Below are positions 15,620 to 40,707 of a stretch of 64,000 nucleotides of DNA, one piece after another. The first letter of the stretch is position 1, and each line of letters starts with the position of its first letter. The notes beneath the pieces are model-generated. The model had not been told where the DNA came from. It saw only the letters and a list, made by a program, of their open reading frames with translations, and searched no databases. Source of the stretch: an uncultured Desulfosoma sp. (GTDB taxonomy: Bacteria; Desulfobacterota; Syntrophobacteria; Syntrophobacterales; DSM-9756); contig CALGPN010000005.1 in assembly GCA_937960435.1 (NCBI GenBank), positions 62,001-126,000 on the forward strand, given 5' to 3'. The translations under genes were made by a program, and so were the position numbers.

Positions 15620-15832
15620 ATGATTGGTGGCATCGGCATGCCCGAATTGCTGGTGATTTTGGTCATCGTGCTCATCATTTTCGGAGCCGGGAAGCTCCCC
15701 GAGATCGGCGCCGGTCTGGGCAGGGGCATTCGAAACTTCAAGAAGGCCACTCAGGAGGAACCGGAACTGCCTGAGAAGAAAACGGAAAAGGTCGAAGCCC
15801 CTGCAGGGGGAACGGAAAAGCCCGCGAGCTGA
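15620..15832 (+). CDS. tatA: Twin-arginine translocase subunit TatA
   Basis: 70 residues. There is one N-terminal membrane helix (residues 6-22, [17 protein letters not shown]), a hinge, then the amphipathic helix [19 protein letters not shown] and a polar tail. It has the FG-x-KLPE hallmark of TatA/TatE. TatA oligomers form the passage for folded proteins that carry twin-arginine signals. No tatB or tatC is close by, so other Tat genes must be elsewhere. An AAGGAG ribosome binding site is present. Confidence 0.93.
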
Positions 15833-15847
15833 GAGCCCGTCGATCCT

Positions 15848-15886
15848 GCGGGAAGAGGCCGCCACGGGCCTTCGGCCTTTTCCCGC
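15848..15886. terminator. Hairpin between convergent tatA and ssb
   Basis: GCGGGAAGAGGCC (15848-15860) can pair with GGCCTTTTCCCGC (15874-15886) in a 13-bp stem with one G-U pair and a 13-base loop. It lies between two genes that converge and probably ends transcription. The T tail is weak. Confidence 0.5.
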
Positions 15887-15958
15887 TTCCGACCTCGACG
15901 AAGACCACGTTAGACTTGGACGATTGGGTTCGCGCTTTTGGGAGCGCACCGGGGACTC

Positions 15959-16429
15959 TTAGAACGGAATGTCGTCCCCTTGCGGTTCGGGCATTTCCGG
16001 CAAGGCCTCGGGGAAAGGTTCTTCGTCTTTGGACCCCGTAGGTGTTCCTCGGCGCACAGGCACCTGGCCCGTTGTCGCTTGGACCGGGGCGTCCCGGCCG
16101 CTGTCGAGAAAGCCGACATCCGAGGCAACGATTTCGGTCGTCGAGCGGCGCACGCCTTGGGCGTCTTCCCATTGGTTGGTTCTCAGACGCCCTTCCACGT
16201 AAACCAGTCGCCCTTTGGAGAGGTAGTTGGCGCAGTTTTCGGCGATCTTCCCGAAAACCACGATCCGGTGCCACTCGGTGCGATCTTCCCAATTGCCTTC
16301 TCCCGCCGGCACCCTTTCGTTGGTCGCCAGGTTGAAGCGCACCACCGGCAATCCGCTCTGGGTATAGCGCACATCGGGATCGGCGCCCAATCGGCCGATG
16401 AGAATGACCTTGTTCAATGTCCGCGCCAT
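15959..16429 (-). CDS. ssb: Single-stranded DNA-binding protein
   Basis: 156 residues from the ATG at 16429 (MARTLNKVILIGRLG). The frame is open a further 77 codons upstream, but only this start matches the family. An OB fold occupies residues 1-110 (GRLGADPDVRYTQSG, WHRIVVFGKIAENCANYL, VYVEGRLRTNQW). It is followed by a disordered Pro/Glu-rich linker and the acidic tip GDDIPF that recruits partner proteins. It coats single-stranded DNA in replication and repair. It is transcribed divergently from plsC. Confidence 0.95.
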   Translation of the reverse strand: MARTLNKVILIGRLGADPDVRYTQSGLPVVRFNLATNERVPAGEGNWEDRTEWHRIVVFGKIAENCANYLSKGRLVYVEGRLRTNQWEDAQGVRRSTTEIVASDVGFLDSGRDAPVQATTGQVPVRRGTPTGSKDEEPFPEALPEMPEPQGDDIPF

Positions 16430-32961: not shown

Positions 32962-34518
32962 TCAGTTATCCTCGAGCGTGATTTCGTACTGCTCCAGATG
33001 AAAGCTGCGTTCACCCTGCACACGGAAACACGCGTGGAGGGACTCTTCCAGTCTCTCCAGGAAAGTCCTTTCCTCATCCAGGAGTCTGGCCGCCACGTGC
33101 GGATGGACTTGAATCAAGACGTTGCGTCCGAAAAGGTCCCGCTGTTCCCTTTGAATCTCGCGAAGAATTTCGTAGCACAGGGTCTGGGTGGATTTGAGCT
33201 GCCCATGACCTTCGCAATAGAAGCACGGTTCACAAAGGGTTCTGCCGATGCTCTCCCGGGTCCGTTTCCGGGTCATCTCGATGAGGCCCAATTCGGACAT
33301 GCGCAAAATGTTCGTCTTGCTCTTGTCCTTGCGCACCGCCTCCTTGAGGGCGTTAAAGACCTTTTCCCGGTTGACTTCTTTTTCCATGTCGATGAAATCG
33401 ATAATGATGATGCCGCCGATGTTGCGCAGGCGCAGCTGGCAGGCGATTTCTTTGACCGCTTCCAAGTTGGTCTTGAGAATGGTCTCTTCCAGGTTGCGCT
33501 TGCCTACGTATCGGCCGGTATTCACATCGATGGCCGTCAAGGCTTCCGTCGTTTCGATGACGATATAGCCGCCGGATTTGAGCCACACTTTCTTGCTCAG
33601 CGCCCTCTGGACCTCCATCTCTATGCCGTAGGCGTCGAAGATGGGTTCGCTGCCTTCGTAGAGTTCCACGCCGTTTTTCAGAGATGGCAGGAAGGTTTCC
33701 GTAAACTGCAAGACCTTTCGGTATTCCTGGGGATTATCGATGATGAGACGGTCCACTTCCTTCGTGAACAGATCCCGGACGGCCCGCAGTGTGATGTCCA
33801 AATCCCGGTAGACCAGGGACGGCACCGGAGCGGTTTCTGCGCGGCGTTGAATGTTTTGCCAGAGCTTCAAGAGGAATTCCATTTCCGCCTGAATCTTTTC
33901 CGCATCCTCCCCTTCAGCAGCCGTGCGCACAATGAAGCCGCAATGTGCCGGTTTGATCTCGAGGACCAAATCCCTGAGGCGTTTGCGTTCCTTTTCGTCT
34001 TCGATGCGCCGCGACACCCCCACGTGGTCCATGAGAGGCATCAGCACCAAGTTGCGGCCCGGCAAAGTCACGTGAGTGGTGATTCTTGCCCCTTTGTTCC
34101 CAAGGGGCTCTTTGGCCACCTGAACCAGGATTTCCTGCCCTTCACGAAGCCGGTCTTCAATGGGCACTTCGAAGAATTCTTTGTCTTCCAAAGAGGATTC
34201 TGGGGCGGCGGAATCGTCGAATGAAACTGCGGCTTGATTTTCCTCCCGGCCGGGGCTGGGATCTTGAAAAATCTGATCCATCTCCATTAACGGATGGTGG
34301 ACATCGCTCACATAGAGGAAGGCCGCCTTTTCCAACCCGATGTCCACAAAGGCCGCCTGCATGCCGGGCAGCACGCGGACGACCCGCCCTTTGTAGATGT
34401 TGCCGGCAATGCCTTCGTCGGAAGCTCTTTCAATGTAGAGTTCCGCCACTTGGCCGTTTTCGACGAGGGCCACCCGGGTTTCGTAAAACTCGGCGTTGAT
34501 GATCAATTCCGCAGCCAT
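32962..34518 (-). CDS. rng: Ribonuclease G / RNase E-type
   Basis: 518 residues. The S1 RNA-binding domain occupies about 35-120 (GNIYKGRVVRVLPGMQAAFVDIG). The catalytic centre has the DNTGRY-like AIDVNTGRYVG and IDFIDM motifs that hold Mg2+, and the zinc-link pair is CEPCFYCEGHG. There is no long C-terminal scaffold, so this is RNase G length, not RNase E. It starts 3 bases after the radical SAM gene, in the conserved pair with TIGR03960 proteins. Confidence 0.95.
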   Translation of the reverse strand: MAAELIINAEFYETRVALVENGQVAELYIERASDEGIAGNIYKGRVVRVLPGMQAAFVDIGLEKAAFLYVSDVHHPLMEMDQIFQDPSPGREENQAAVSFDDSAAPESSLEDKEFFEVPIEDRLREGQEILVQVAKEPLGNKGARITTHVTLPGRNLVLMPLMDHVGVSRRIEDEKERKRLRDLVLEIKPAHCGFIVRTAAEGEDAEKIQAEMEFLLKLWQNIQRRAETAPVPSLVYRDLDITLRAVRDLFTKEVDRLIIDNPQEYRKVLQFTETFLPSLKNGVELYEGSEPIFDAYGIEMEVQRALSKKVWLKSGGYIVIETTEALTAIDVNTGRYVGKRNLEETILKTNLEAVKEIACQLRLRNIGGIIIIDFIDMEKEVNREKVFNALKEAVRKDKSKTNILRMSELGLIEMTRKRTRESIGRTLCEPCFYCEGHGQLKSTQTLCYEILREIQREQRDLFGRNVLIQVHPHVAARLLDEERTFLERLEESLHACFRVQGERSFHLEQYEITLEDN

Positions 34519-34521
34519 GGT

Positions 34522-37137
34522 CTATCCCTCGAAAGGCGCCACGGAAACCTTGCACACACGGCACGCTCCCAAGGCTTCCGCCGCCTCGGGAAGCAAAAGC
34601 TCCAAGAAGCTCTGGGGTCGAAAGCGAGCCGAAGGGCTTTCCACAAGGTCCATGGCCACGCATGTTTCATCGATGCGGCGCACGGAAACGAGAACCTCGG
34701 CACACCGCGCTTCAATGCACCCTCTTTTGGTCTTCTTGGTGACAAGGCGATCCGCGCACGTCACATAGCGAGTCATCATAGCTGTCACCATTTCTTCGGT
34801 CAAACCCGAAACATGGTAAGTCACTCGAAGCACGGCCGTTTTGGGCCCATCGGCCGTCGCGCGCTTCACCTCAAGAAGGCGAAGTCCCGCGGGCAATTGC
34901 CTGTTGAGCCGTTCCTGGACCTCCCGGGTCTCGAGGGGTTCTTCCAACTGGATTTCGGCTTCCTCCGCTTCGCTTTCCATCCCAACGGGCAAAGCTTCCC
35001 GGAAGGAAATTTTGGGATGCGGGTGGAAACCACGGCTGAAGGCCACCGGAAGGCCCGTCCTTCGGACGGCCCTTTCCATCATGCGGCTGACTTCCAGCTG
35101 GCCGTAAAAACGGGCTTGGTCCTTTTTGGCAAAACGGAGCCTGTAGGCATAAAGAGGCTCTTCGGCGCCTCGGGGCGACTCGGCCTCCGAAGGCGAGACC
35201 GCTTCGCCTGGGGGCTCGTCGTAAAGGCGTGGCGCAATGGCGGCGCCGTCACAAGCGCCGCAGCCCGAGCACGGCTCCCAGCGGCAATCCCCTGTCCCCC
35301 GGTATTCCAGGGCCTTTTGCCATTCCTCCCAAAGGTAGCCCTTGCGCACGCCCGCGCTCAGGTGATCCCAAGGCAGCGGGTCGGTTTCATCGTAGCGGCG
35401 CTGCGCTTGCGTATCGGCGCAAAGGCCCGATTCAGCGAAGGCCTCGTCCCATATGCGGCGCTGAAAGTGTTCCTCCCATGCGTCGAACCGGGCCCCTTTG
35501 CGCCAGGCCGAGACGATGACCTCCGCAAGGCGCCGGTCGCCGCGCGCCAAGGCCGCTTCCAGGACGCTCAGATCCGGACTGTGCCACTTCAACCGAATCC
35601 CAGGGCGTTTCAATCGTTCCTTGAGAAAATCCAGTCGACGAACCACTTCCTCCTTGGGGATCTGACCGGTCCACTGGAAAGGGGTCATGGGCTTGGGGAC
35701 AAACGTGGAGACGGCCACGTTGACCCCGGCTCGGTAGGGTTTCCCAAGTCGCCAGACCTTCATGGACAAAGCGACAATCTCTTCCAGGTCTTCCAGGGTT
35801 TCCGTGGGCAGGCCCATCATGAAATAGAGCTTGATCCCCTTCCACCCCAGGGCGTAAGCGTCCCGCACCGTCTGAAAGAGGTCTTCGTCTTCGATATTTT
35901 TGTTGATCAACCGCCGAAGCCTGATGCTGCCCGCCTCCGGGGCCACGGTAAAGCCGGTCTTGCGCACGCGGCGGATACATTCCATGAGGTCTTGGGAAAG
36001 CGTCCCCACACGCATGGACGGGAAAGAGACCGCCACGCGCCGGGAGGCCATCTCCCGCATCACCGCGCCCAGGAGCCATCCCAATCGGCAGTAATCCCCG
36101 GTGCTTAAGGAAAGAAGGGAAACCTCTTCAAAGCCGGTCTCTGAAACGGCTCGGCAGGCCTTTTCCACCAGCGTTTCCGGACACCGCTCCCGAACAGGCC
36201 GATAAACGAAACCCGCTTGACAGAACCGACATCCGCGGGTGCACCCCCGAGCGATCTCCAAGCCCAAACGGTCGTGCACGATTTCCACGAGGGGCACCAA
36301 GGGGCGGTCGGGAAGGGGGCTTTCCCGATCCAAGTCCGAAAGGACCCTTTTTGTCACCCCCGGATAGTCAGGGTAAAGGGGGTCCACCCCTTCGAACCGG
36401 CCGTGACCATCATAGCGGGGTTGGAAAAAGGACGGCACATACACCCCGGGGATCTTTCGCACACCCTCCAAGAATTCGCGCCGAGAACCGTCGCTCGAGC
36501 GCCAATCCCGGTAAGCCGCCGTCAGATCCGCCAGGACCTGTTCCCCTTCGCCCAAAACGATGAGGTCGAAAAAGGGGGCCAGAGGTTCCGGGTTATAGGC
36601 ACAAGGGCCTCCCGCCACCACGAAGGGGTCGGTGGACCCCCGGTCGCGGCTCTCAAGCGGGATTCCGGCAAGATCCAGCATGGTCAGAACATTCGTGTAG
36701 CTCAACTCATACTGCAGACTGAACCCCACGAAGGCGAAGTCCTTGAGCGGACGACGGCTTTCCAAAGCAAAAAGGGGATACCGGCTTTCTCTCAAACGGC
36801 GCTCGAAGTCGGGCCATGGAGCGTAGACCCGATCCGCTACGACGCCTTCCATGTCATTGAGTCGATGATACAGAAGGTGGATGCCTAGATGGCTCATCCC
36901 CACTTCGTACACATCGGGAAAAGCCAAAACGTAGCGCACATCGGCGTCGGGGAAATTCTTCCGGCGAGCGTTGATTTCTCCCCCGAGATACCGCCCGGGC
37001 CGCTCGATGCCCCTGAGCAACGCCTCCATCACAGGCTCCGATAGGGGCTCTCCTGGGATCCCATCCCCGCGGAATGTGATCGGTTCCGCCGGTCGGATGC
37101 CGGCGCCCACGGCGCCAGCGTCGTTACAGGCGCTCAT
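34522..37137 (-). CDS. TIGR03960-type B12-binding-like radical SAM protein fused to DUF2344
   Basis: 871 residues from ATG 37137, with GAGGTG upstream; a TTG 4 codons earlier overlaps the preceding stop. The order is: an N-terminal cobalamin-binding-like region (FPDVYEVGMSHLG), a radical SAM core with GCTRGCRFCQAG (C-x3-C-x2-C), a linker with several Cys (EPCSGCGACDG), and a C-terminal DUF2344 domain (YRLRFAKKDQARFYGQLE). The family is widespread and nearly always next to rng, yet its reaction is not established. Location suggests an RNA- or ribosome-related modification, which is inference. Confidence 0.9.
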   Translation of the reverse strand: MSACNDAGAVGAGIRPAEPITFRGDGIPGEPLSEPVMEALLRGIERPGRYLGGEINARRKNFPDADVRYVLAFPDVYEVGMSHLGIHLLYHRLNDMEGVVADRVYAPWPDFERRLRESRYPLFALESRRPLKDFAFVGFSLQYELSYTNVLTMLDLAGIPLESRDRGSTDPFVVAGGPCAYNPEPLAPFFDLIVLGEGEQVLADLTAAYRDWRSSDGSRREFLEGVRKIPGVYVPSFFQPRYDGHGRFEGVDPLYPDYPGVTKRVLSDLDRESPLPDRPLVPLVEIVHDRLGLEIARGCTRGCRFCQAGFVYRPVRERCPETLVEKACRAVSETGFEEVSLLSLSTGDYCRLGWLLGAVMREMASRRVAVSFPSMRVGTLSQDLMECIRRVRKTGFTVAPEAGSIRLRRLINKNIEDEDLFQTVRDAYALGWKGIKLYFMMGLPTETLEDLEEIVALSMKVWRLGKPYRAGVNVAVSTFVPKPMTPFQWTGQIPKEEVVRRLDFLKERLKRPGIRLKWHSPDLSVLEAALARGDRRLAEVIVSAWRKGARFDAWEEHFQRRIWDEAFAESGLCADTQAQRRYDETDPLPWDHLSAGVRKGYLWEEWQKALEYRGTGDCRWEPCSGCGACDGAAIAPRLYDEPPGEAVSPSEAESPRGAEEPLYAYRLRFAKKDQARFYGQLEVSRMMERAVRRTGLPVAFSRGFHPHPKISFREALPVGMESEAEEAEIQLEEPLETREVQERLNRQLPAGLRLLEVKRATADGPKTAVLRVTYHVSGLTEEMVTAMMTRYVTCADRLVTKKTKRGCIEARCAEVLVSVRRIDETCVAMDLVESPSARFRPQSFLELLLPEAAEALGACRVCKVSVAPFEG

Positions 37138-37145
37138 CGGGCACC

Positions 37146-38324
37146 TCAAGACGACGCGCGAGCGGCATAGAGGGGCGACATGGAGCGAAGGAGCGAGACC
37201 ACCGCCTCCAGGATTTCCACGGCATGGTTCACTTCGTCTTCAGTGTTTTCTTCATCCAGGGTAAAGAGCAGCGTCCCGAAGGCGCCGTCGCCCAAAAGCC
37301 CCATGGCTTCCAAGACATGGGAAGCCTTGGCGGTAATGGACATGCACGCCGAAGCCCCGGCGACGCAAATGCCCCGAAGATCCATGTGCAACAGCAGGGC
37401 TTCCCCCTCCACATACCGAATGGAGACATTGACAAGTCCCGGAAGGTGTTTGTCCGGATGGCCGTTGAAGCGCACGTCATCGATAGTTTCGGCGATGCGC
37501 CGCCGGAGCATCTTTTCCAGCCGGCCGCATCGCTCCATCTTGGCGGGAAGTCGCCTGAGGATGCGTTCCGCGGCGGCGCCCAAACCCACAATGCCCGGGA
37601 CGTTTTCCGTCCCCGTTCGGCGGCCGTCTTCTTGCCCTCCGCCGTGGAAAAGCGGCCACAGAGAAACCCCTTTTCGGCAATAGAGCGCCCCGGCACCTTT
37701 GGGGCCGTTGAATTGGTTCGCCGCCAGACTGAGAAGATCCACGCCCAGCTCTTTCACATCGACGGGAATGCGCCCCACCGAAGCGATGGCATCCGTATGG
37801 AAAAGCGCTCCCCGCCGGTGCACGACGGCCGCGATTTCCGCCAAAGGCTGGATCGTTCCCACTTCATTGTTGGCATGCATCACGGACACCAGCACCGTAT
37901 CCGGCCGCATGGCTTTTTCCACATCCTTGGGATCCACCATGCCGTGCTCGTCCACAGGGACCAAGGTCACGGAAAATCCGAACCTTTCCAGAGCCTTCGC
38001 TGCATAAAGGACGGAATAGTGCTCCACGGCCGAAACCACCAGATGCCGGCCATCGTGCATTCGATGGAACGCGCCGCCTTTGACGGCCAAATTGTTGGCT
38101 TCGGTGCCTCCGGACGTGAAAATGATTTCTTCGGGTTCCGCCCCGATGAGGGCGGCCGTCTGGGCACGCGCTTTGAAAATGGCGTCCTGAGGCACCTCAC
38201 CCAAGTGATGAATGCTGGCGGGATTGCCGTAGTGCTCTAAGAAGAAAGGTTTCATCGCCTCAAAGACTTCGGGAGCCAACGGGGTTCCCGCGATGTGATC
38301 CATGTAAATTCTTCGGCCCTCCAT
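37146..38324 (-). CDS. NifS/IscS-like class V aminotransferase fold protein without the PLP lysine
   Basis: 392 residues, full length for a cysteine desulfurase. Kept are H102 (VEHYSV), TSGGTEANN, N152 (HANNEVG), D178 and the sulfur-accepting C327 (ASACMSI). Changed are the Schiff-base lysine (Q204 in AANQFNGPKG, where IscS has SGHK at 203-206), with A201 for Ser, N203 for His, and A181 for Gln183. The changed codons read cleanly in the DNA, with no frameshift. GAGGGGGTG precedes the ATG. It probably cannot hold PLP in the normal way. It is coupled to the radical SAM gene (8-base gap). It could use sulfide directly, or serve as a scaffold or binding protein. Confidence 0.85.
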   Translation of the reverse strand: MEGRRIYMDHIAGTPLAPEVFEAMKPFFLEHYGNPASIHHLGEVPQDAIFKARAQTAALIGAEPEEIIFTSGGTEANNLAVKGGAFHRMHDGRHLVVSAVEHYSVLYAAKALERFGFSVTLVPVDEHGMVDPKDVEKAMRPDTVLVSVMHANNEVGTIQPLAEIAAVVHRRGALFHTDAIASVGRIPVDVKELGVDLLSLAANQFNGPKGAGALYCRKGVSLWPLFHGGGQEDGRRTGTENVPGIVGLGAAAERILRRLPAKMERCGRLEKMLRRRIAETIDDVRFNGHPDKHLPGLVNVSIRYVEGEALLLHMDLRGICVAGASACMSITAKASHVLEAMGLLGDGAFGTLLFTLDEENTEDEVNHAVEILEAVVSLLRSMSPLYAARASS

Positions 38325-38607
38325 GCCACACCCCCTCGTTCCGACATCGGGTAAACGCTCAAACTTTTTTCCGCAAAAGCATGTATCTATACGTTTCCTG
38401 CAGGGGCAGCGTCAACCCCTTAACCTGGGAAGGCCGGGGCGACGCCGCGGCGACTTTCTCCTTGCAAAAGCCTGTGGGGCGTGCTAGAGGGGGCGTGAAA
38501 TCTTTATCATGCCAAGGGCTGCCGGGCAGGCAGTGCCGTCAGGGGTTATACCACAGGGACAAACGGCTGGTCGGGAGTTCATCGGAGAAGCAAAAGGAGG
38601 CAAAGCG

Positions 38608-38916
38608 ATGAAGGTTTTCCTAGGCGGTCTTGCCGCAGCTTTTTTCGGCATCATTGGTATTTTCATTTGGTTCAAGCCTTTTCTCAACCTGCTGGCGGGC
38701 GCCATTCCCTTGATGCTGCTGCTCGGCGGCGCCATGGCGGCCTATTTGGGCTATGACGAGGTCAAGGACCAATTGCCGTTCGGCAAGAAGAAAGAGGAAG
38801 AGACCCCTGCGGCGGCCCCGACGGATGATCTTTCCAAGTACAAAGAAGAAGCGGAAAAGTACAAGCAGGAAGTGGAAAAGCTGAAAGCCGAGCTGGAAAA
38901 GGCTAAAACGGCGTAA
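38608..38916 (+). CDS. Small inner-membrane protein with cytoplasmic coiled coil
   Basis: 102 residues from ATG 38608, which has an ideal AAAGGAGG site. The frame is open further upstream, but without such a site. Two membrane helices lie at about residues 3-24 and 28-50. A Lys/Glu-rich helix with heptad pattern (KYKEEAEKYKQEVEKLKAELEK) makes up the C-terminal third. No enzyme motif is visible. It is preceded by a possible TTGCAA-N17-TAGAGG promoter and followed by a strong terminator, so it is a monocistronic unit. I do not recognise a named family. Confidence 0.8.
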   Translation: MKVFLGGLAAAFFGIIGIFIWFKPFLNLLAGAIPLMLLLGGAMAAYLGYDEVKDQLPFGKKKEEETPAAAPTDDLSKYKEEAEKYKQEVEKLKAELEKAKTA

Positions 38917-39009: not shown

Positions 39010-40707
39010 TTAGGCCGGCGCAGAAGGCCCGTCCTGCACGGCTCTGCGCCACATCTCATAGGAACGGTAGCCGCCGCTGAGATTCTTGGCCTGAAACCCA
39101 TGTTGGCGCAGGGCCCGAGCGGCCACATAGGACCGCTGGCCGACGTAACAGTAGGCCCAGATTTCCCGGTCTTTGGGCAGTTCGCCCATGCGTTGTCGCA
39201 GAACTCCCAAGGGGATATGGACCGCGCCCGGAATGTGCCCGCGCCGGAATTCAAACGGTTCACGCACATCCAGCACCACGACGTTTTCGGGAGGCCGGTC
39301 CATGTTTTCAGCGTGAACGATGTCCACATCGCCTCGAACCACGTTGGCGGCAATCATCCCGGCCAAATTCACCGGATCTTTGGCCGACCCGAACTGAGGG
39401 GCATAGCACAGCTCGGCCTCTTCCAAATCGAACACGGTGCCGCCCTTCTGGAGCGCCATGGCGATGACATCCGTGCGGCGGACCGCACCTTTTTTGCCGA
39501 CGGCCTGGAGCCCGAGGATTCTTCCGTCTTTCTTCGAAAAGATGAGCTTCATGGTGATGGTTTCCGCGCCGGGATAGTAGCTCGCATGATGCCCGGGGTG
39601 GAGGTAAATTTTCTCGCAGCCGTACGGCTCGTCCCACAACCCGAGGCTTTTCAAAATTTTTTCGCTGGGCCCCGTCATGGCGAGCGCGTAGTCGAAAAGC
39701 CCCACGACGGCCGTCCCTTGGACACCGCGAAAGCGCGCATCCCGCCCGCAGATGACATCGGCCGCGATGCGTCCCTGCCGATTGGCCGGCCCCGCCAGAG
39801 CCAACAGGGTCTGACGCCCCGTAACCACATGCACCACTTCCACGGCGTCTCCCACGGCATAGATGGCCGGGTCGCTGGTCTGCATCCGGTCGTTGACGCG
39901 GATGCCCCCCAGAGGCCCCAAGTGGAGCCCGGCCTCCCGGGCCAACTGCACTTCGGGCCGAACACCGACGGCCACAATAACCAAAGAAGCTGAGATCCCC
40001 TCTCCGGAACGAAGCCGGACCGTCATCCCCCCCGATGCGGCTTCCTCGATCCGTTCCACGTGCGCCCCCAAACGCACATCCACCCCTTTTTGAACAAGGA
40101 CTTCGTGTAAGGGCAAAACCATTTCAGGATCGCACGCGGGCATGAGCTGATGCTGCATCTCCACCACGGTCACCCGCAGTCCCCGGCGGACCAAATTTTC
40201 CGCCATTTCAAGGCCGATATAGCCACCGCCGATAATCACGGCACTTCCTGCGTCTCTTTCCTCAATCAGGTTCCGGATGGCCCGACTGTCCGGGATGGTT
40301 CGCAGGAAGAAGACCCCCGGAAGATCCACGCCTTCGATGGGCGGTCGCACCGGAGAAGACCCCGGGGACAGCACCAAAGCGTCATAGGTTTCTTCATACT
40401 CCCGGCCGGTTTGATGGTCCCGAACCGAGATCCGACGGCCGTCCCGATCGATTCCCACCACCTCCGAATGAAGGCGCACCTCGATGTTGAACCGCTGTCG
40501 AAACATCTCCGGTGTGGCCACGAGAAGGTGCTCTTCCCGTCGGATCACATCGCCGACGTAATAGGGCAAACCGCAATTGGCAAAGGAGACGAAAGGCCCC
40601 TTTTCGAAAATGATGATTTCGGCGTTCTCGTCCAATCGGCGGGCCCGTGCCGCACAGGACGCTCCTCCGGCGACTCCCCCGACGACACAGATGCGCTTTT
40701 TTTTCAT
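39010..40707 (-). CDS. CoA-disulfide / persulfide reductase with C-terminal rhodanese domain
   Basis: 565 residues. The flavoprotein part has an FAD motif (CVVGGVAGGASCAARARR), the redox Cys C45 in SFANCGLPYYVG, a second NAD(P)-binding motif (VIIGGGYIGLEMAENL) and the AVGDAVEV motif. A rhodanese domain occupies the last 110 residues with its active Cys C520 (YCYVGQRSY). This arrangement is that of CoADR-Rhd and of the NADH-dependent persulfide reductase of Shewanella (Npsr). It would reduce CoA-persulfide, CoA-disulfide or sulfane sulfur in the cytoplasm, fitting a sulfide-rich cell. It is transcribed divergently from tamA. Confidence 0.9.
   Translation of the reverse strand: MKKKRICVVGGVAGGASCAARARRLDENAEIIIFEKGPFVSFANCGLPYYVGDVIRREEHLLVATPEMFRQRFNIEVRLHSEVVGIDRDGRRISVRDHQTGREYEETYDALVLSPGSSPVRPPIEGVDLPGVFFLRTIPDSRAIRNLIEERDAGSAVIIGGGYIGLEMAENLVRRGLRVTVVEMQHQLMPACDPEMVLPLHEVLVQKGVDVRLGAHVERIEEAASGGMTVRLRSGEGISASLVIVAVGVRPEVQLAREAGLHLGPLGGIRVNDRMQTSDPAIYAVGDAVEVVHVVTGRQTLLALAGPANRQGRIAADVICGRDARFRGVQGTAVVGLFDYALAMTGPSEKILKSLGLWDEPYGCEKIYLHPGHHASYYPGAETITMKLIFSKKDGRILGLQAVGKKGAVRRTDVIAMALQKGGTVFDLEEAELCYAPQFGSAKDPVNLAGMIAANVVRGDVDIVHAENMDRPPENVVVLDVREPFEFRRGHIPGAVHIPLGVLRQRMGELPKDREIWAYCYVGQRSYVAARALRQHGFQAKNLSGGYRSYEMWRRAVQDGPSAPA

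Follow-up and report, generated by a model that had tools for sequence, protein, structure and literature searches.

Gene and protein

What can a protein with the fold of a cysteine desulfurase still do when the lysine that forms the Schiff base with PLP is missing? The question is raised by a minus-strand gene of the window, by which we mean the whole 64,000-nucleotide stretch of DNA from an uncultured Desulfosoma sp. that was analyzed here (Table 1). A first-pass annotation, made from the sequence alone, had placed this gene in a sulfate-reducer context, and dsrA is indeed present in the window's genome. The reading frame is intact, with 392 open codons between an ATG at 38324 and a stop codon at 37146-37148. 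Its product matches the Pfam family Aminotran_5 (aminotransferase class V, 2.1e-73), and the AlphaFold2 (AF2) model presents a confident IscS fold (pLDDT 93), for which the closest PDB structures are NFS1, Archaeoglobus fulgidus IscS and E. coli IscS (TM about 0.9-0.96). The class V aminotransferase fold is thus supported by Pfam, by the model and by the PDB matches. The protein nevertheless lies under the curated cut-off of each desulfurase model in the NCBIfam table, the best being TIGR03402 with 454 against 530.75 bits.

Orthologues were found in 11 other genomes of the same class (64-87% identical). None has a lysine at position 206, which is Gln in nine and Ile in two, and dN/dS of the window gene against its two nearest orthologues is 0.07 and 0.09. 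These orthologues and the low dN/dS rule out sequencing error, including one at 37700-37720, as well as frame damage and decay. Together with the intact frame, they bear out the earlier suggestion that the changes reflect selection for another role.

Table 1 Coordinates of the gene, its neighbours and the residues discussed in the text.
Feature	Position	Strand	Basis
CDS, lysine-less IscS/NifS-fold protein, 392 aa	37146..38324	-	ORF, Pfam, NCBIfam, AF2 model
TIGR03960/TIGR03936 radical SAM fusion, downstream neighbour	34522..37137	-	ORF, Pfam, NCBIfam
RNase E/G family protein, neighbour	32962..34518	-	ORF, Pfam
AANQ codons, residues 201-204, replacing S-G/A-H-K (E. coli SGHK 203-206)	37713..37724	-	Alignment
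Ala181 replacing Gln183 (hydrogen-bonded to the phenolate oxygen of PLP)	37782..37784	-	Alignment; Gln183 role: PMC9978102
Leu353 replacing Arg354 (substrate cysteine carboxylate)	37266..37268	-	Alignment; Arg354 role: PMC9978102
His102, matching His104, kept; PLP ring stacking	38019..38021	-	H in every sequence, whether bacterial, archaeal or lysine-bearing
Asp178 = Asp180, kept; pyridine nitrogen	37791..37793	-	D in every sequence
Cys327 = Cys328, kept; sulfur-carrying cysteine of mobile loop	37344..37346	-	C in every sequence
LRSMSPL, C-terminal segment docking IscU in E. coli IscS, kept	37170..37190	-	Alignment; interface: PMC2854127

Active-site residues lost and kept

Residues are numbered by E. 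coli K-12 IscS, to which the window protein was aligned. The four substitutions named in the first-pass annotation were correct (Lys206 to Gln204, His205 to Asn203, Ser203 to Ala201 and Gln183 to Ala181), but its list was incomplete, as Arg354 to Leu353, Thr12 to Gly13 and Ala106 to Ser104 had been missed. The Schiff-base lysine is therefore absent, with Gln204 at its site. The residues described there as retained, Cys327, His102 and Asp178, do align with Cys328, His104 and Asp180, and Asn155 is retained as well. The Cys327 loop (328-332) is flexible in the AF2 model. As for another lysine taking over the Schiff-base position, none was found among the 95 bacterial lysine-less sequences described below: Lys82 alone is near-universal, yet it also occurs in 59% of the lysine-bearing relatives. 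The window protein thus has the fold, the mobile-loop cysteine and the IscU-docking tail in common with E. coli IscS, human NFS1 and NifS, whereas the lysine, His205, Gln183 and the substrate arginine that these proteins own are all four missing from it.

E. coli IscS loses its desulfurase activity when K206 or Q183 is mutated, and its Arg354 binds the carboxylate of the substrate, although R354K is still active (PMC9978102). Unlike that active variant, the lysine-less proteins carry Leu, Val or Ile at position 354. Because these three residues, functional in E. coli IscS, are lost, the machinery to bind and cleave cysteine is gone as judged from the alignment, while Cys328, His104 and Asp180 are invariant.

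Extent and origin of the lysine-less clade

When genome contigs were scanned with a profile built from the aligned orthologues, most matches were lysine-bearing relatives, but lysine-less proteins of Omnitrophota, Chloroflexota and other groups also came up. The phylum-wide, other-genome and archaeal searches, with the fetched regions, yielded 273 distinct IscS-like proteins, of which 168 bear the lysine and 105 do not (95 bacterial and 10 archaeal). The bacterial lysine-less group thus comprises at least 95 sequences. At position 206 the bacterial sequences have one of eight residues (Q, P, S, T, A, I, R, N) and the archaeal ones always have D; in one archaeal genome, the second lysine-less copy matches PDB 4eb5 almost letter for letter.

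Among the 168 lysine-bearing proteins, 86 columns are conserved at 90% or more. When a column was counted as lost if its conservation was down to 30% or less, the bacterial clade had lost exactly six of them (T12, A106, Q183, H205, K206 and R354), and the archaeal clade 12, including all six of the bacterial losses. With the lysine excluded, an overlap as complete as this (5 of 5) would arise by chance with a probability of about 1.4e-5, assuming separate origins and independent columns. A FastTree of the IscS-like proteins needs two changes to explain the loss of the lysine. In a more careful tree, from which the active-site columns had been removed, the archaeal set stands beside a lysine-bearing Methanoperedens protein (100/97), the bacterial set stands apart, and one lysine-bearing row, L044, falls inside the bacterial set. 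Holding all lysine-less rows together is 41 log-likelihood units worse (p-AU 0.082). Separate origins of the bacterial and archaeal lineages are thus favoured by the trees, though not proven. L044 (8001-9143), which branches in or close to the lysine-less clade, still has the lysine, with Cys in place of Gln183 and Gln in place of Arg354, and is perhaps an intermediate toward the lysine-less state.

The likeness to A. fulgidus IscS that had been drawn in the first-pass annotation holds. That protein (PDB 4eb5, 4eb7 and 4hvk; D199K mutant 4r5f) has also lost the lysine and Thr12, has Ala for Gln183, Asn for His205 and Leu for Arg354, and keeps the cysteine, His104, Asp180 and LRSMSPLY. It is reported to have no desulfurase activity because the lysine is Asp (PMC7585200), and it forms a complex with IscU, in which a [2Fe-2S] cluster is held by three IscU cysteines and IscS Cys321 (PMC9769115). 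The two proteins differ in having Asp or Gln at the lysine site, in lineage, as noted above, and in gene context, as A. fulgidus iscU lies directly downstream of iscS while that of the window genome lies elsewhere. Methanosarcina acetivorans IscS1, likened here by description, is likewise reported without the catalytic lysine (PMC7585200); it too is archaeal and was expressed only as inclusion bodies. Lysine-less IscS was thus already known in archaea, and what appears to be new is a bacterial clade with the same set of losses. The open literature searched, including that on IscS of sulfate reducers, held no report of such a clade, which should be considered weak evidence, as most subscription papers lie outside its scope; a search for pseudoenzyme literature found nothing in the open literature either.

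Probable partnership with IscU

Outside the window's clade, 70 of the 82 bacterial lysine-less genes that could be tested are followed by a same-strand iscU no more than 600 bp downstream, as are all 10 archaeal ones, compared with 94/162 lysine-bearing genes. In the window's clade, none of 11 genes has iscU in this position. All 12 genomes with a window-type gene instead carry a stand-alone iscU, 53-74 bp from mnmA. In the IscU tree these 12 IscUs group together as a single clade, nested within those that are paired with lysine-less IscS, although the tree is built on few columns and its deeper forks are modestly supported. In the window genome itself (L016, contig C17, with iscU at 15732-16091), genes for a NIL-domain ferredoxin, IscU and MnmA stand in a row, with MnmA carrying NPCVLCN.

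In E. coli, the LRxxSPL tail contributes to the interface between IscS and IscU (PMC2854127). It is kept in 12/12 members of the window clade, in 82/83 other bacterial lysine-less proteins and in 10/10 archaeal ones. The window genome also encodes two lysine-bearing relatives, L002 (AGHK) and L003 (SGHK). The former is 45% identical to the window protein, lies on another branch and is SCLY-like by its GAACHS loop, and the tail is found in 0/11 members of its SCLY-like group. As the tail is kept throughout the window clade and missing from that group, the lysine-less protein is, on its sequence features, the window genome's best candidate for docking IscU. It should be noted that in the window's clade, in which the gene is not adjacent to iscU, the grounds for the putative pairing are phylogeny, co-occurrence and the docking tail.

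Gene neighbourhood

The radical SAM gene that follows starts with an ATG at 37137 after a gap of 8 bp, and a GAGGTG overlaps the stop of the IscS-like gene. The context of the gene in the window's clade comprises TIGR03960, rng and hemL. The next same-strand gene upstream (39010-40707, minus strand) encodes a CoA-disulfide reductase-like/rhodanese fusion with a CxxGxR motif (CYVGQRS), a neighbour conserved only in the window's genus (3 genomes). A small divergent gene (38509-38916, plus strand) encodes 135 aa with hydrophobic stretches followed by a charged, coiled-coil-like tail. Its product has no Pfam match, and its relatives (cluster c4) adjoin the IscS-like gene in several orthologous regions.

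Sulfide as a putative sulfur source

In the phylum sample, a strong dsrA match was present in 61 of 70 genomes with a lysine-less IscS and in none of 24 genomes with a lysine-bearing best match, the latter having been drawn from matches to the lysine-less profile, i.e. by similarity. Many dsrA genomes are without a strong match to the lysine-less family. The link between dsrA and lysine-less IscS is an association only, and it is confounded by descent, as there is essentially one bacterial origin.

Sulfide is known to feed Fe-S assembly in other systems. In an E. coli iscS mutant it does so on IscU with no IscS present, and since sulfide and IscU suffice there, an IscS partner is not an absolute requirement under those conditions (PMC13015791). 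In the SMS system (SmsCB) of methanogens, sulfide feeds assembly on SmsCB without a cysteine desulfurase (PMC12192291), as is proposed here; unlike the window system, SmsCB is a SufBC-type scaffold unrelated to IscU and has no IscS-like protein.

Proposed role and alternative explanations

We consider the window protein to be, probably, an IscS-fold protein that has no desulfurase function and acts as an assembly partner, helping IscU to build clusters from sulfide. Desulfurase inactivity, IscU binding and sulfide as the source are the parts that we infer; the residue changes, the phylogeny and the gene linkage are observed. With the A. fulgidus IscS-IscU complex taken as a model, the dimer would dock IscU through the retained C-terminal tail, and Cys327 on the mobile loop would serve as a transient ligand, or as a persulfide carrier, for the nascent cluster. 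The sulfur would be drawn from sulfide in the cytoplasm, of which a sulfate reducer has plenty, and PLP might be bound non-covalently as a structural relic.

With His104 and Asp180 retained, PLP may still be bound and some chemistry may persist. The first-pass annotation had envisaged a loss of PLP binding, which is left doubtful by the invariance of these two residues, the PLP contained in the A. fulgidus IscS crystal structure (PMC9769115) and E. coli K206A, which retains some PLP and forms intermediates slowly (PMC9978102). The protein could then bind PLP without a Schiff base and catalyze PLP chemistry that is slow or modified (weak desulfurase activity, or a reaction with another substrate) with His104 as the base, and both the behaviour of K206A and the retention, complete or for the most part, of His104, Asp180, Thr76 and Thr243 would fit. 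Such a reaction is, nonetheless, rather improbable, as every member, or nearly every one, has lost Gln183 and Arg354 along with the lysine, about a quarter of the bacterial proteins beyond the window clade and half of the archaeal proteins have another residue in place of Asn155, and residue 206 varies freely, with no single replacement. It is also unlikely that Cys327 receives a persulfide from a dedicated donor, either rhodanese or polysulfide, and passes S0 to IscU, which would make the protein a sulfur relay and not only a ligand. The invariant Cys328 loop and the rhodanese fusion encoded next door could be read in this way, but that neighbour is limited to the window's genus and the other members showed no sulfurtransferase gene as a recurrent neighbour.

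In IscS, the active site takes Thr243 from the other subunit, and most genomes here have a lysine-bearing paralogue, so that the window protein could be imagined as the inactive subunit of a heterodimer. This is very unlikely when one considers that the only two strong matches in the archaeal genome G561 are both lysine-less, that the A. fulgidus complex is (IscS-IscU)2 and that L002 of the window genome is so distant. Hardly to be expected at all is that the protein works for the adjacent TIGR03960 radical SAM protein and RNase G, with which the first-pass annotation had linked it. Apart from the short gap, the order is conserved in most f1 and f2 orthologues, but f4 orthologues lie elsewhere in a different context, so that the adjacency is kept in only part of the window's own clade, and the recurrent neighbour in the wider clade is iscU.

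The assembly-partner role can be extended to a broader reading, which we hold as possible while stopping short of calling it probable. It would comprise a widespread bacterial Fe-S system of separate origin from the archaeal one, in which an IscS without cysteine chemistry is the obligatory partner of IscU, the clusters of sulfate reducers are fed directly by sulfide, and lysine-bearing paralogues perform other sulfur transfer (with fdhD and mnmA as neighbours). A. fulgidus IscS, which so far looked like an archaeal oddity, now shares a common set of losses with a bacterial clade of at least 95 members. Should the proposed function be correct, IscU-based Fe-S clusters are made without cysteine in a large group of anaerobes, and the annotation 'cysteine desulfurase' is wrong there. 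The old question of whether the IscS cysteine is a sulfur donor or a cluster ligand would then be testable in natural proteins incapable of the desulfurase step.

Lysine-bearing paralogues

Several lysine-bearing IscS proteins (L256, L262, L264, L266, L269 and L273) have mnmA nearby, and in at least three of the genomes concerned (G128, G111 and G174) the lysine-less IscS adjoins iscU, hinting at a division of labour between the two kinds of IscS. In the window genome, L003 (contig C58) is a lysine-bearing class V desulfurase directly adjoining fdhD, which suggests a dedicated sulfur donor for formate dehydrogenase. The same genome encodes a second NifU_N-domain protein (L017, contig C49; 154 aa, weak match), with counterparts in most related genomes.
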